7,793 bases of DNA from positions 1 to 7,793 of the forward strand of contig SBEK01000186.1 in assembly GCA_009668925.1 (NCBI GenBank), in the 5' to 3' direction. The stretch's first letter is position 1; the number at the start of each line of letters is the position of its first letter. Below, piece after piece: positions 1-6,679 of this stretch. Position numbers and translations under genes: made by a program. The notes under the pieces are model-generated. The model was given only the letters and a program-made list of their open reading frames with translations, ran no database searches and was not told the DNA's origin. The stretch is from Deltaproteobacteria bacterium. Lineage in GTDB: Bacteria; Desulfobacterota; Syntrophia; Syntrophales; Smithellaceae.

Positions 1-309
1 CCGCTTCGCTCTGCGGGATAAGTTCGACTAACAAATTTCAGTGCGCTTCGCTTCTCCTATTTGAGGAACTAACCCCGCGCCGCTTCGCTCTGCGGGATAA
101 GTTCGACTAACAAATTTCAGTGCGCTTCGCTTCTCCTATTTGAGGAACTAACCCCGCGCCGCTTCGCTCTGCGGGATAAGTTCGACTAACAAATTTCAGT
201 GCGCTTCGCTTCTCCTATTTGAGGAACTAACCCCGCGCCGCTTCGCTCTGCGGGATAAGTTCGACTAACAAATTTCAGTGCGCTTCGCTTCTGAAATTTG
301 AGTCGAACT
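1..309. repeat. Tandem array of a 79-bp unit, at least 3.9 copies, running off the left edge
   Basis: Copies start at 1, 80, 159 and 238, so the period is exactly 79 bp. The first three copies appear identical. The fourth matches for about 55 bp and then changes (from about 293) into a sequence that completes a long hairpin. Read on the minus strand, each unit splits into two diverged halves of 38 and 41 bp. Both halves begin GTTAGT and contain the core GCGAAGCG. In one half the core lies between CCCGC and GCGGG arms. In the other it lies between partly complementary AT-rich arms. The array carries no convincing reading frame. Its true length is unknown because it continues past position 1. 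It resembles REP/REPIN-type palindromic repeats in layout, but that is inference and no family is recognised. Confidence 0.93.
258..309. repeat. Long inverted repeat (hairpin) closing the tandem array
   Basis: The arms are 258-278 and 291-309. They pair over 19 bp, interrupted only by a two-base AA bulge at 267-268, and enclose a 12-base loop (279-290). The left arm begins AGTTCGACT and the right arm ends AGTCGAACT. The left arm is part of the common 79-bp unit, whereas the right arm occurs only in this last copy. In the other copies the corresponding segment pairs only partly with the left arm. The hairpin directly abuts the nine-base A run that forms the T tract of the minus-strand terminator. 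It may be the intact boundary copy of the repeat or an additional stabilising structure; its role is not known. Confidence 0.8.
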
Positions 310-496: not shown

Positions 497-572
497 TGGT
501 GGGCCCACCTGGGATCGAACCAGGGACCTACCGGTTATGAGCCGGTGGCTCTACCAATTGAGCTATAGGCCC
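497..572 (-). tRNA. tRNA with CAU anticodon, probably tRNA-Ile2 (lysidine type), possibly elongator tRNA-Met
   Basis: The minus strand folds into a complete 76-nt cloverleaf. It has a 7-bp acceptor stem (GGGCCTA with TGGGCCC, including one G-U pair), D stem GCTC/GAGC, anticodon stem ACCGG/CCGGT with loop CTCATAA, T stem CCTGG/CCAGG with loop TTCGATC, discriminator A and an encoded CCA (497-499). The anticodon CAT lies at 537-539. A CAU anticodon is shared by initiator Met, elongator Met and the Ile2 species whose C34 TilS converts to lysidine. The acceptor has C4-G69 and C5-G68 and the loop is CTCATAA, both of which resemble Ile2 of E. coli and B. subtilis more than elongator Met. The first pair is G1-C72, which argues against an initiator tRNA. 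The Ile2 assignment is inference. The gene lies 153 bp downstream of the rpoD stop and is transcribed in the same direction. Confidence 0.95.
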
Positions 573-725: not shown

Positions 726-2474
726 CTATTTTGCCGCGCGCTTCCTGGATAAACTCTTTGTTTTCTTTAACGGCTCTTCTTCGACCGGCTCCGGTTCTTC
801 GTTGTCCGATTCCACAAGATCCACCGGCGCATTTTCCTCCGGACCAACGGCACCGAGGCGGTCGCTGATTCCAAAACGCATTCGCAGAACCTTCTCCTCA
901 CGCGGCGTAAGGGTGGCCAGGATTTTGCGCGTCTGATCCGCCAGATCCATGCTGATCGTGGCTTCTGACGGCGACATGATCTTCTTGTCTTCGATAAAAT
1001 CACCCAGGTGGCTGTCTTCTTCCTCTCCGATCGGCGTTTCCAGGGAGATGGGCTCCTTGGCAATCTTAAGCACCTTGCGCACCTTCTCCAGCGGGTATTC
1101 CATCTTATTGGCGATTTCCTCCGGGGTCGGTTCGCGGCCCAGCTCCTGCACCAGATAGCGCGACGTCCGGATCAATTTATTGATGGTTTCAATCATATGG
1201 ACGGGAATCCGGATGGTCCGCGCCTGATCGGCGATAGCGCGCGTGATGGCCTGACGGATCCACCACGTTGCATAGGTGGAAAATTTATAGCCGCGCTGGT
1301 ACTCAAACTTATCCACGGCCTTCATCAGTCCGATGTTGCCTTCCTGAATCAGATCCAGAAACTGCAGACCGCGGTTGGTATATTTTTTGGCAATGCTGAC
1401 CACCAGACGAAGATTGGCTTCCACGAGCTTTCGCTTGGCGATCTCCGCCTTGGCTTCGCCTTCCTCGATCGACTCGACAACATTCTTTAAGGTGGCTGTC
1501 GGGATGCCGACCTCCTTCGAAATGTGCTTGATGCGCTTTTGCGCTTCCGAGATGGCGTCATGGCTCCGGTGCAGCCAATCGATGGAAACCTTCGCTTCCT
1601 TCGCCGCCTGCTTCTCGTCGGCCTTGGACTTCTTCATTTTGGACCAGGCCTTTTCCATCAGCGTCAGCGTTAAACCCGATTCCTTCTTGAACTGGTTGAT
1701 CACGCGTTCGGACCGTTCAATCTCATCCGTAAAGAACCTCAGCCGCGCAATGAACCGGTGCATCTGCTTTTTGCTGAAGCGGATTTTGCGGCAAAGCGTG
1801 ATAATATTCTTTGTATTCTTTTCCAGCTCCGCGGTCAGTGTCTCCCGCTGCTTGGGTTTCATGGTTTTGGATTTAAGTTTTTCCCTCAGGACCTCATTGC
1901 GTTCGTTAAAAAGCCTGATCCGGCCGATCAATCGGAGCACGCGGTCCTTGTGTTCATCCTCCTCCATGAACCCTTCTTCATCTTCGATATTGTCCACCAC
2001 ATTCTTGACGCGAATATCACCGGACACCAGCTTCTCGCCGATGCTCAGCACTTCAGCAATGGAAACGGTCAGGCTGAAAATCGCCCACATGGTTTCCCGG
2101 GCGCCTTCTTCAATCTTCTTGGCGATCTCCACCTCGCCTTCGCGGCTCAAAAGGGATACGAGGCCCATTTCGCGTAAATACATCTTGACCGGATCACCGG
2201 TCTTGCCCGCGCCGGGCACCAGCGTCAGGGCCTCCACGAATTTTGACGGCAAGACGTCCTCAACCGGCTTTTTAACCACCAGCTTCTCTCCCTGTTCGGT
2301 GTCAATAATATCGATATTCTTCTCACCGAACAGCATGATGATATCATCGATCTGGTCCGAAGAATTGACATCGGGCGGCAACATGTCATTGACATCGTCA
2401 TAGGTTAAAAAGCCTTTTTCCGCTCCCAGCGAAAGTAATTTTTTAAATTCATCGGATGGTATTTCTTTAGCCAT
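726..2474 (-). CDS. rpoD: RNA polymerase primary sigma factor RpoD, lacking region 4.2
   Basis: This is the primary (sigma-70/RpoD) sigma factor, which directs core RNA polymerase to promoters. I chose the ATG at 2474 ([10 protein letters not shown]) because GGGGGA lies six bases upstream; an in-frame ATG at 2495 has no ribosome site. The product is 582 residues. Region 1.1 is at about 4-75, region 1.2 at about 93-125 ([11 protein letters not shown]), and a charged non-conserved region at about 126-340. Region 2 is at about 343-415, with [20 protein letters not shown] and the melting and -10 recognition segment [18 protein letters not shown]. Region 3 is at about 423-490. Region 4.1 ends at [15 protein letters not shown] (residue 536). 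After that the expected TLEEVG...[22 protein letters not shown] helix-turn-helix is absent. A 46-residue tail, acidic ([12 protein letters not shown]) then basic (ending SRKRAAK), replaces it. No frame downstream encodes region 4.2. The gene follows dnaG by 26 bp, the usual macromolecular synthesis order. Identity is certain; whether it works as a normal housekeeping sigma factor is doubtful. Confidence 0.96.
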
Positions 2475-2500
2475 CGGGCATCCCCCAAATTTCATTATTT

Positions 2501-4264
2501 TTAATGTAATTCTTTTTCTTTTCTCAACAAATCCTGTTTTTCATAAGTCAGTTTGTGAGTCAGTTCTCCATCGCCGTTTTCTTCCGCTTGCCTCAACCTC
2601 AGCTGAATCAGACGCTTTTGTTCCTTGTACCACTTTTCTTTGATTCTCCGGATATTATCGGAAAAATTGCGTTCCACCATATTATCATCGGTTGACGGCG
2701 CCTCAATACTTAATTTATAAATCATTTCCCGCAGCGGCTTGTCTTCAGCGGACGACAAAATAACATTAATGTCAATATATCCGAGCAGTTTGTAAGTCTG
2801 CGCGATTTTTTCTCCCAGATCTTTAAGCCGGGGCTCCATAAAGAAGTCCCATATTTTTTCATCTTCCATCTGGAAAGCTTTCTCGGGATATTCCAGAATA
2901 AGCCGTATCAGATTCAGTTCCAGAGGATTCAAACCCGGCCGAACACCCTGTTTCGGCTTAACCGACGCGGGTTTCTGCCCGATTTCTTTGTGATGAATTT
3001 CCCTTTTCAACAACGCCTGGTCGATGCCCAGTCTTTCCGCAATCCGCTTGATGAAAAGGTTTTTTTCTATTTCATCATTGATTTTGTTCACGAATTCCAT
3101 GGCCGTCTTCACCAGGTCACGGTTTTCTTCAAAAGTCTTTCCATCCCCCAGAACGTTATCAATATAGTAATCGCTGATGGACGGCGCAACCGCGATCAAT
3201 TCCTCAAGTTTTTCCCGGCCGAATTTCTTGACAAAGTCATCCGGATCGTCTCCCCCGGGAAGAATTAAAGCCCGGGCGCGCATATTCGCGCCGAGGAACA
3301 GCTCCAGGGAACGATCCAGCGCTTTTCGTCCGGCCGCATCGGGATCGAACAGCGCCACAACATCCTGAGTATACCGCCTGAGGAGCTCCAGGTGGTCGCG
3401 CGTCAGCGCCGTGCCAAGGGTCGCCACGACGTTCCGCACACCGGCATTCCAGAGGGATATGACATCAAAATATCCCTCGACAATCAGGCAAAATCCTTTC
3501 TCGCGAATGGATTCTTTCGCTTTCTGCAGCCCGTAAAGGTTTTTGCCTTTGATATAAACCGGCGATTCCGGCGAGTTTAAGTACTTCGGTTCGCCTTCTC
3601 CCAGAATCCGGCCGCCAAAGGCAATGATTTCTCCAAAGATATTTTCTATCGGAAACATCAACCGCCCGCGAAAGCGATCGTAATAGCTTCCCTCTTTGCC
3701 GGCGATGACAAGCCCCGCCTGTTCCGCCAGCGTAAGCGATAATCCGCTCTTTTCCAGATCATCGGCCAGCGATCGCCATGTGTCCGGCACAAACCCCAGA
3801 CGGAATTGCCGGACGGTCTCTTCGGTCACCGCCCTCTTCTGCACGTAATCACGGGCGGTTCTTCCGGCCCCGGACGCCAGAATCCGCGCATAGTGCTGCG
3901 CCGCTCTCAAATTCAGACTGACGATCTCGTCATGCAGACTTTCTTTTTCCCGGCCTTCTCTGCTCAGGGTCCGCACGGGCAGGATAACGCCTGTTTTTTC
4001 CGCGAGATGTTTGATCGCTTCGGGGAAACTTTTATTGGCAATCTTCATCAACAGGGTAATGACGTTTCCCCCCTCTCCGCAACCGAAGCAATAAAAAATT
4101 TGTTTCTCACGGTTGACGGTGAAGGACGGCGTCTTCTCCTGATGAAACGGGCAGAGGCCCAGATAATTCCTGCCCGCCTTTTTTAAAGTCAGGTATTCGG
4201 AGGCAAGCTCGACAATGTCCACCCTGCTTTTAATTTCTTCAATCTTACTGTCATCGAAACGCAC
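2501..4264 (-). CDS. dnaG: DNA primase DnaG
   Basis: DnaG synthesises the RNA primers for replication and works with the DnaB helicase at the fork. From the GTG at 4264 the product is 587 residues, a normal length. The N-terminal CHC2 zinc domain has ligands C38, H41, C59 and C62 (CPFH...CFGC). The catalytic TOPRIM core shows VEGYFD (E263) and FDPDAAG (D307, D309), almost at the E. coli positions; the usual DGD is DPD here, which keeps both acidic residues. [10 protein letters not shown] follows at about 335-344. The C-terminal third (from about [17 protein letters not shown]) is the helical DnaB-interacting domain. I chose GTG because AAGG lies nine bases upstream and the protein then begins [11 protein letters not shown] as in the family. 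An upstream in-frame TTG at 4288 would add eight residues but has no ribosome site. The gene sits between yqeY and rpoD, its classical place. Confidence 0.96.
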
Positions 4265-4317
4265 GAATGATGGCCTTGCCTGATTCAAGATAATTCAACG
4301 CTTAGGGAATAAAGCCC

Positions 4318-5998: not shown

Positions 5999-6679
5999 TT
6001 ATTGTTCAAACCCGGTGAACGTCGAAAAGACTTCATCAACACCCAATTTCGTCAATTGGCGCGCAGTCAGCCATTTGGCGCCTCCCTTGAAAAAAGAAGA
6101 CGCCTGGAAGACGTCTTCCATGAGTGATTTTTGCGTCTGGTCAAAAATGCCGCGCCACAGCGTGCTCCCGTTCTTGACGGATATCATATGAATCTCAAAG
6201 GCGACCGACGCGGGACGCTCCGCGGAATAGTCATAGCCGACGCGTTCGCGATAGCGGTAGACGTAGCCGATGACCATCACATCGGCGTGCAGTTCATTCC
6301 CGACGCGCTGAAGAATCTGCATGACCGTTTGTTTCAGGGAATCCGCGGATATCCGCTGATAGACACCCGCCACTCTTTCCAGCGGGATGATGTCCGCATT
6401 TTTCACATTCGCCAGCTTGTCCATGAAAATCCCCTGAACAATCTGTTCAGCGCCTTTGACAATACTGCCGCTGGAATTCACGCTGCCGCAAATCGGGCAC
6501 CGGACGGTCGCGGATTCGTCTTCCGGAATCATGGTCTTAAATGGAATCACCGCCAGACGGACATGATTTTTGTCCACGGGCTTCGCTGCGTCCTGCGCGC
6601 CAAGGCCCAGGGGCAAAAACACCATGACCCCGAAACACACTATTGCTAAGCAAATTTTCACCGGGAATATATTTCTCAC
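5999..6679 (-). CDS. Secreted protein of unknown function, TolB/LpoB-like fold suspected
   Basis: I do not recognise a named gene. From GTG at 6679 the product is 226 residues. It begins with a signal peptide: basic MRNIFPVK, a hydrophobic stretch to about 26, and a likely signal peptidase I site around LGA-QD at 28. No lipobox cysteine is evident, so it is probably periplasmic, not a lipoprotein. The mature part starts HVRLAVIPFKTM, a strand seen at the start of TolB-N/CsgG/LpoB/FlgO-like domains. It continues with ADVMVIGYVYRYRER and ASVAFEIHMISVKNGSTLWRG, which fit that alpha/beta pattern. A CPIC pair (C61, C64) lies in an inserted loop and is unusual for an exported protein. The GTG start has AGG nine bases upstream, but GAGG abuts it, so a GTG at 6661 is possible. 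The gene lies 19 bp after hisB, between histidine genes. The fold assignment is inference. Confidence 0.85.
   Translation of the reverse strand: MRNIFPVKICLAIVCFGVMVFLPLGLGAQDAAKPVDKNHVRLAVIPFKTMIPEDESATVRCPICGSVNSSGSIVKGAEQIVQGIFMDKLANVKNADIIPLERVAGVYQRISADSLKQTVMQILQRVGNELHADVMVIGYVYRYRERVGYDYSAERPASVAFEIHMISVKNGSTLWRGIFDQTQKSLMEDVFQASSFFKGGAKWLTARQLTKLGVDEVFSTFTGFEQ

Follow-up and report, generated by a model that had tools for sequence, protein, structure and literature searches.

A primary sigma factor without region 4.2 in Syntrophales, and a separate cysteine-rich protein that may supply it in trans

The primary sigma factor is usually taken to be a single polypeptide chain. A sigma factor without a region 4 of its own is found in phage T4, where the late sigma factor gp55 works with gp33, a partner bound at the beta-flap that is no −35 reader, in a system dependent on the sliding clamp. 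WhiB-like proteins bind region 4 of the primary sigma factor. They are small and act on the primary sigma factor, with Fe–S in WhiD, according to the available portions of PMC7363131 and PMC3905903. The closest precedent for the arrangement described here is the two-subunit sigma factor SigO–RsoA (YvrI–YvrHa) of Bacillus subtilis, an alternative sigma factor whose two genes share one operon and whose split falls between domains, and for which the accessible part of PMC8103513 places sigma4 on SigO and sigma2 on RsoA; this part and that of PMC10141391 disagree on the allocation of domains between the two proteins. A search of titles and starts of abstracts in the open-licence PMC literature found, among the entries listed, no split or region-4.2-less primary sigma factor in Syntrophales.

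The window, by which we mean the whole stretch of 7,793 nucleotides that was analysed (contig SBEK01000186.1, assembly GCA_009668925.1), carries on its minus strand the end of hisG, hisB, an unassigned ORF, hisA, a gene for a HIT protein, yqeY, dnaG, rpoD and a tRNA-Met gene, a Smithellaceae-like content. The features that concern us are as follows.

726..2474, minus strand: rpoD, 582 aa, with regions 1.1, 1.2, 2, 3 and 4.1 recognisable
867..911, minus strand: region 4.1 helix (residues 522–536), near-invariant in 26 aligned Syntrophales RpoDs
726..866, minus strand: 46-residue tail in place of region 4.2, plus stop; low-complexity, acidic then basic, fast-drifting among relatives
2501..4288, minus strand: dnaG (primase), directly upstream of rpoD in the usual dnaG–rpoD neighbourhood
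497..572, minus strand: tRNA-Met (CAT), downstream of rpoD

The tRNA was the single match in an Rfam search of the window. The contig end (window 1–292) consists of 3.7 repeats of a 79-bp unit with 100% matches, a 22-nt piece of which was absent from all 378 loci compared, and the 226-aa ORF between hisB and hisA (5999–6679) had no Pfam match.

The rpoD reading frame can be extended to 2495 (726–2495, minus strand; 589 aa), with 2474 the likely start. Residue 536, the final residue of MRFGI, ends at 867; the tail occupies 866–729 and the stop codon 728–726. In Pfam, regions 1.1, 1.2, 2 and 3 scored over the cut-off, and Sigma70_r4 was matched over positions 2–18 of 50 only, at 23.1 bits against a cut-off of 24.1. 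When models made from the two halves of canonical region 4 in relatives were searched in the six frames of the window, the region 4.1 model scored 77.5 bits in the RpoD frame and the region 4.2 model had no match in any of the six, its best score being −1.8 bits. A preliminary description of this locus had read RpoD as canonical to region 4.1 (residue 536) and then replaced by a 46-residue tail, and had held that no frame encodes region 4.2, leaving a frameshift no explanation; Pfam, the half-domain models and re-reading confirm the former, and the six-frame search bears out the latter. The protein thus resembles group 1 RpoD in its regions 1.1, 1.2, 2, 3 and 4.1, its dnaG neighbour and the strong conservation of regions 2 and 3, and differs from that group in lacking the region 4.2 helix-turn-helix in the same chain. 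Its structure prediction was a low-quality model (pLDDT 62.8 overall and below 50 in the tail), in which regions 2 and 3 were poorly modelled too.

All of the best 120 of 7999 scored homologues carry a tail of this kind at the same place; because the query stretch used for ranking contained the tail, these are close kin by choice. A scan of one genome per GTDB species gave 183 loci, and canonical region 4.2 was present in none of the 78 readable loci among the best 80 (L028, with masked, ambiguous bases, and L073 were left out of the tail reading). The break after MRFGI, for which the preliminary description had proposed a comparison with close relatives, is thus conserved. The tails of the 78 loci form a graded series of decay, in which some retain remnants such as SRERAKQIESGAVRKLRNPSRRR without the TLEEVG helix, and Smithella and its nearest relatives have a tail with almost no recognisable region 4.2 remnant. 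Because the same kind of tail recurs in relatives and region 4.2 occurs in no frame, the break is not the product of chance, a frameshift or a single-contig chimera.

Across the order Syntrophales, as assigned from record titles, a motif test found region 4.2 lost in 110 of 114 RpoD rows, a count that includes the window and some genes twice; the four rows that keep it are two foreign-looking genes (in G244 and G203), each fetched twice. By the same test region 4.2 was present in all 28 readable control rows from the phylum, the controls being the best-scoring 30 of a phylum-wide draw of 148 genomes plus L308, with no random draw. The test was tried on 149 rows, of which 7 went unread (L028, L073, L178, L233 and the controls L207, L216 and L219). 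Among the matches listed, the RpoD_Cterm cut-off was exceeded in 130 of the 148 phylum-draw genomes versus 60 of 155 Syntrophales genomes. A tree of 50 RpoD cores placed 14 controls behind a branch with support of 98/95, the bootstrap being unsettled. Since the canonical copy of G244 groups with the controls in this tree and that of G203 sits on a very long branch, both look, on sequence grounds, like bin contaminants. A single loss of region 4.2 in Syntrophales is likely but unproven, because the RpoD of G192, a divergent Syntrophales genome in which region 4.2 is also lost, falls among the controls on a long branch. Two RpoD genes, both degenerate-tailed, occur in G019 (L438), G216 (L440, L439) and G241 (L445), as duplicated rpoD or as mixed strains in the bin; the second RpoD copies of G019, G216, G240 and G241 are all degenerate.

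Region 4.2 is found in these genomes on a separate protein. In 27 of 30 genomes scanned with PF04545 (Sigma70_r4), an ORF of 95–157 residues matches positions 18–50 of the family only (17–50 in G017); the scan found no separate region-4.2 ORF in G014, G021 and G029. The protein has about 94 residues, with five conserved cysteines followed by region 4.2, and its typical sequence includes Y-x-C-K-K...C-x4-C-E-W. It matches Sigma70_r4 at 49.5 bits against the cut-off of 24.1, and coverage of the family is complementary, positions 2–18 lying on the window RpoD and 18–50 on the small protein, which lacks the region 4.1 helices since its match begins at position 18. The full protein was found in 141 of the 155 Syntrophales genomes (E ≤ 1.1e-36), which answers the earlier proposal to search for a free-standing region 4.2 polypeptide, here run in relatives, and strongly supports its suggestion of a partner protein supplying region 4. 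The gene was seen in relatives of the window genome such as G001 and G002 (RpoD 92% identical). A full ORF is missing in 14 of the 155, one of which (G293) has a fragment at a contig end, and these absences are likely to be gaps in draft genomes. Of the 148 phylum-draw genomes, 4 have the small protein, all four of them Syntrophales; 141 others have matches no stronger than E 1.1e-12, and most of the rows shown are RpoD-sized frames; 3 gave no match. In G192 (L229, L230) an RpoD without region 4.2 is accompanied by the small protein that is most distant among the main copies listed, at 66% identity; this genome may represent a deep lineage carrying the split.

Among 51 small proteins drawn from the best 120 matches, no variation was seen at the five cysteines or over most of the region 4.2 part. 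Divergent paralogues (L237, L241, L242) differ at some of the invariant places, and in some paralogues the cysteine part and region 4.2 are both divergent; G230 and G265 have two paralogues each and G280 three (L237, L238, L239–L243). Profile alignment of the N-terminal part with region 4.1 gave a confidence of 0–1. In the phylum-wide draw the alignment of some full-length RpoDs with the small protein reaches as far back as about its residue 11, at 36–44% identity; we discount this extension because the profile comparison gives that part no confidence. No family was recognised for the five-cysteine part by PHROGs, Pfam or sequence searches: the Pfam scan, taken to E 1, returned Sigma70_r4 and three helix-turn-helix families below cut-off, and no WhiB; PHROGs matched the region 4.2 part only; and a low-sensitivity search that took as its query the cysteine part from the most divergent member recovered two proteins, itself included. 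Phage (32 records) and plasmid (141 records) searches for a mobile source of the small gene found no single place covering more than 80% of the protein, and the 20 matches listed for each lie mostly in the region 4.2 segment, the widest (H21) spanning residues 12–84 in a gene annotated rpoD. Structure prediction of the small protein was poor (mean pLDDT 51). In source annotations it is mostly a "hypothetical protein" and in a few cases a sigma factor-like helix-turn-helix protein, with P0171 and P0174 annotated as sigma factor or sigma subunit.

Over residues 18–84 of the small protein the median pN was 0.012 at a pS of 0.63, from the 136 of 1081 pairs among 47 proteins with pS of 0.2–0.7, a set picked by motif and hence favouring conserved sequences. 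In the RpoDs of L001–L024, the 69 codons ending after region 4.1 gave a pN of 0.013 at a pS of 0.70, and the tail a pN of 0.339 at a pS of 0.62 (150 equal-length pairs). By this measure strong purifying selection acts on the small protein, whereas the RpoD tail is drifting. In sigma structures the region 4.1 helix normally packs on region 4.2, and the helix in these RpoDs appears to be kept as if it still packed against one; its near-invariance therefore supports a domain 4 assembled from two chains.

We consider it highly probable, on the strength of these sequence comparisons, that a two-subunit primary sigma factor operates here, with the window RpoD as its large subunit and region 4.2 supplied in trans by the small protein. 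RpoD would provide core binding, −10 recognition, melting and region 4.1, and the small protein the remaining helices of domain 4, with which it would read the −35 element, probably while packed on RpoD region 4.1 at the beta-flap. A normal sigma-4 domain would thereby be rebuilt from two chains, and promoters would be expected to keep the ordinary TTGACA-17-TATAAT form. The trans copy would presumably have come first and decay of the cis copy in RpoD followed.

Alternatively, a second housekeeping sigma factor with an intact region 4.2 could do the work and this RpoD be decaying, and another RpoD-like sigma factor of that kind does occur, among the matches listed (to E 3.7e-51), in 10 of the 155 Syntrophales genomes. 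It was sought with three families, the copies G187:C188 and G251:C106 being left out of the reading, and in these genomes it could be an extra −35 reader, native or contaminant. Five of the ten are bins with RpoD-like genes that have a canonical region 4.2 (G244, G203, G215, G242 and G193; L231, L232, L233, L437 and L452), and five have short RpoD-like sigma factors, in frames of 303–394 aa, whose region 4.2 is intact (G024, L441; G030, L442; G246, L447; G245, L448; G247, L449). Such genomes are few, however, the G244 and G203 copies are contaminant-like, those of G024, G030 and G245–G247 are short, and regions 2–4.1 of the RpoD under discussion are very strongly conserved. Moreover, in G230, a single contig of 3,179,300 bp whose RpoD has a degenerate tail, region-2 and region-4 profile searches found four sigma region-2 proteins (RpoD, of 603 aa, and proteins of 294, 268 and 236 aa) and region-4 matches over the cut-off in these last three and in two small proteins, with no second RpoD and no RpoD-sized substitute; an RpoD_Cterm search likewise gave no intact second RpoD for G219 among the matches listed. 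The second full-length RpoD envisaged in the preliminary description is thus excluded in G230, and we rejected it as a general answer; takeover by another sigma factor is very improbable. An assembly, frameshift or recombination artefact, which had been raised as well, might be suspected because the window lies close to a contig end where a 79-bp unit is repeated exactly, but the absence of region 4.2 from every frame and the conservation of the same tail across many separate assemblies and in the single contig of G230 exclude it for practical purposes, leaving it a negligible probability.

Promoter sequences bear on whether the holoenzyme works without any region 4.2. E. coli sigma70 without region 4 can use extended −10 promoters, a precedent for the reliance on such promoters that was proposed for this locus. 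Exact TTGACA-N16–18-TATAAT pairs are nevertheless strongly enriched over the order, with 1267 sites in the 155 genomes versus 109 for the reversed pattern, compared with 220 versus 124 reversed at N21–23; the former outnumber the latter in 141 of the 155, tie in 9 and are fewer in 5. In a block of 50 genomes (G196–G229) that includes fully lost tails, the counts were 648 (reversed 65) at N16–18 and 106 (reversed 64) at N21–23. In G219, whose RpoD tail is fully lost, 546 upstream regions placed by a crude gene caller in sixty 20-kb stretches (1.2 Mb of a genome of about 4.1 Mb) held 20 pairs at spacer 17 versus 0–6 at any one of the other spacers between 8 and 29; the antisense strand had 4 at spacer 17. 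TGn was not enriched there: it preceded 27 of the 505 TATAAT-like sites on the sense strand and 27 of the 531 on the antisense strand. Three Syntrophales sets were also compared in a separate promoter survey, and in two of them the spacer peak was weak or missing: a first, smaller G230 set showed no clear peak (3 at 17, 4 at 15), and a set of 36 rpoD loci, whose regions are largely mutually homologous, showed none at 17 (1 pair). The control G060 had a peak on both strands (9 sense, 6 antisense). The retained TTGACA-17-TATAAT form means that something still reads −35, and reliance on extended −10 promoters is accordingly scarcely credible, less so even than a second sigma factor. The statement that this sigma factor cannot read −35 elements probably holds for RpoD alone and fails for the holoenzyme. 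The interpretation first given is partly supported. The −35 reader could still be a DNA-binding co-activator, if the small protein recruited polymerase by contacts of its own and domain 4 were not rebuilt. Its extra conserved five-cysteine part, of no recognised family, might make such a contact, and none of the neighbourhoods seen has its gene close to rpoD; yet the near-invariant region 4.1 of RpoD is hard to explain if nothing packs on it, and the −35 to −10 spacing is still 17, as normal geometry predicts. We regard this arrangement as unlikely.

The proposed split sigma factor is like SigO–RsoA in that sigma domains normally in one chain would lie on two cooperating proteins (PMC8103513, as far as the available text goes), here recognised from sequence alone, and complementary sigma parts are indeed carried by two co-distributed proteins. 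It differs from SigO–RsoA in involving the primary sigma factor, in being cut inside domain 4, with region 4.1 on RpoD and region 4.2 on the small protein, in its presence in most genomes of an order, and in its genes, which are not neighbours in one operon in any of the neighbourhoods examined. The likeness to T4 gp55–gp33, compared here by general description, is that of a sigma factor without region 4 and a partner; the difference lies in the T4 partner being no −35 reader and in the dependence on the sliding clamp. The small protein is unlike WhiB-like proteins in that it itself carries region 4.2 and has no WhiB match in Pfam. Measured against the two-subunit alternative sigma factor SigO–RsoA, as it appears in the accessible part of the literature, what would be new is an order-wide split of a primary sigma factor inside domain 4. 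If the split is real, the textbook single-chain assumption is broken, the −35 reader in most Syntrophales genomes being a separate, highly conserved, cysteine-rich protein, and the order offers a natural system in which to test the coupling of domain 4, the flap and −35 binding. Housekeeping transcription might then be set by the amount or the redox state of a subunit of about 94 residues. More tentatively, we speculate that the split makes −35-dependent housekeeping transcription switchable, the redox state of the cysteines (through metal, Fe–S or disulfide) deciding the −35 reader; the adjacent glutaredoxin and ferredoxin:thioredoxin reductase beta chain would help in Smithellaceae, and the paralogues would be several interchangeable −35 readers for one RpoD.

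The small gene lay beside rpoD in none of the neighbourhoods examined, and in G230 its two copies and rpoD are far apart on one contig. By motif, a gene for the ferredoxin:thioredoxin reductase (FTR) beta chain adjoins the small gene on the same strand in 33 of 36 loci (L107–L114 and L141–L168, some genes twice, mostly Smithellaceae), where the small gene usually runs against enoyl-CoA hydratase and IHF genes; the three exceptions are L110, which lacks the small gene, L147, which ends early, and L108, with the hydratase only. Thirteen more loci, among which are paralogues and loci with short flanks, include none with FTR as a neighbour and 6 with sppA, IHF or enoyl-CoA hydratase. Pfam confirmed FTR-beta, glutaredoxin, enoyl-CoA hydratase, IHF/HU and an S49 peptidase in L287 of G219, in which glutaredoxin, the FTR catalytic beta chain and the small gene are consecutive on one strand (L287:11818-12839). 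The FTR and glutaredoxin adjacency hints at redox control. When start codons were assigned by script, 22 of the 45 distinct upstream regions had an exact TTGACA no more than 150 nt before the small gene. In 20 of these 22 the hexamer is located between −57 and −67, and a weak −10 hexamer usually follows at a distance of 17 nt. We conjecture that a perfect −35 with a weak −10, in the putative promoter of many copies of the small gene, would fit self-regulation.
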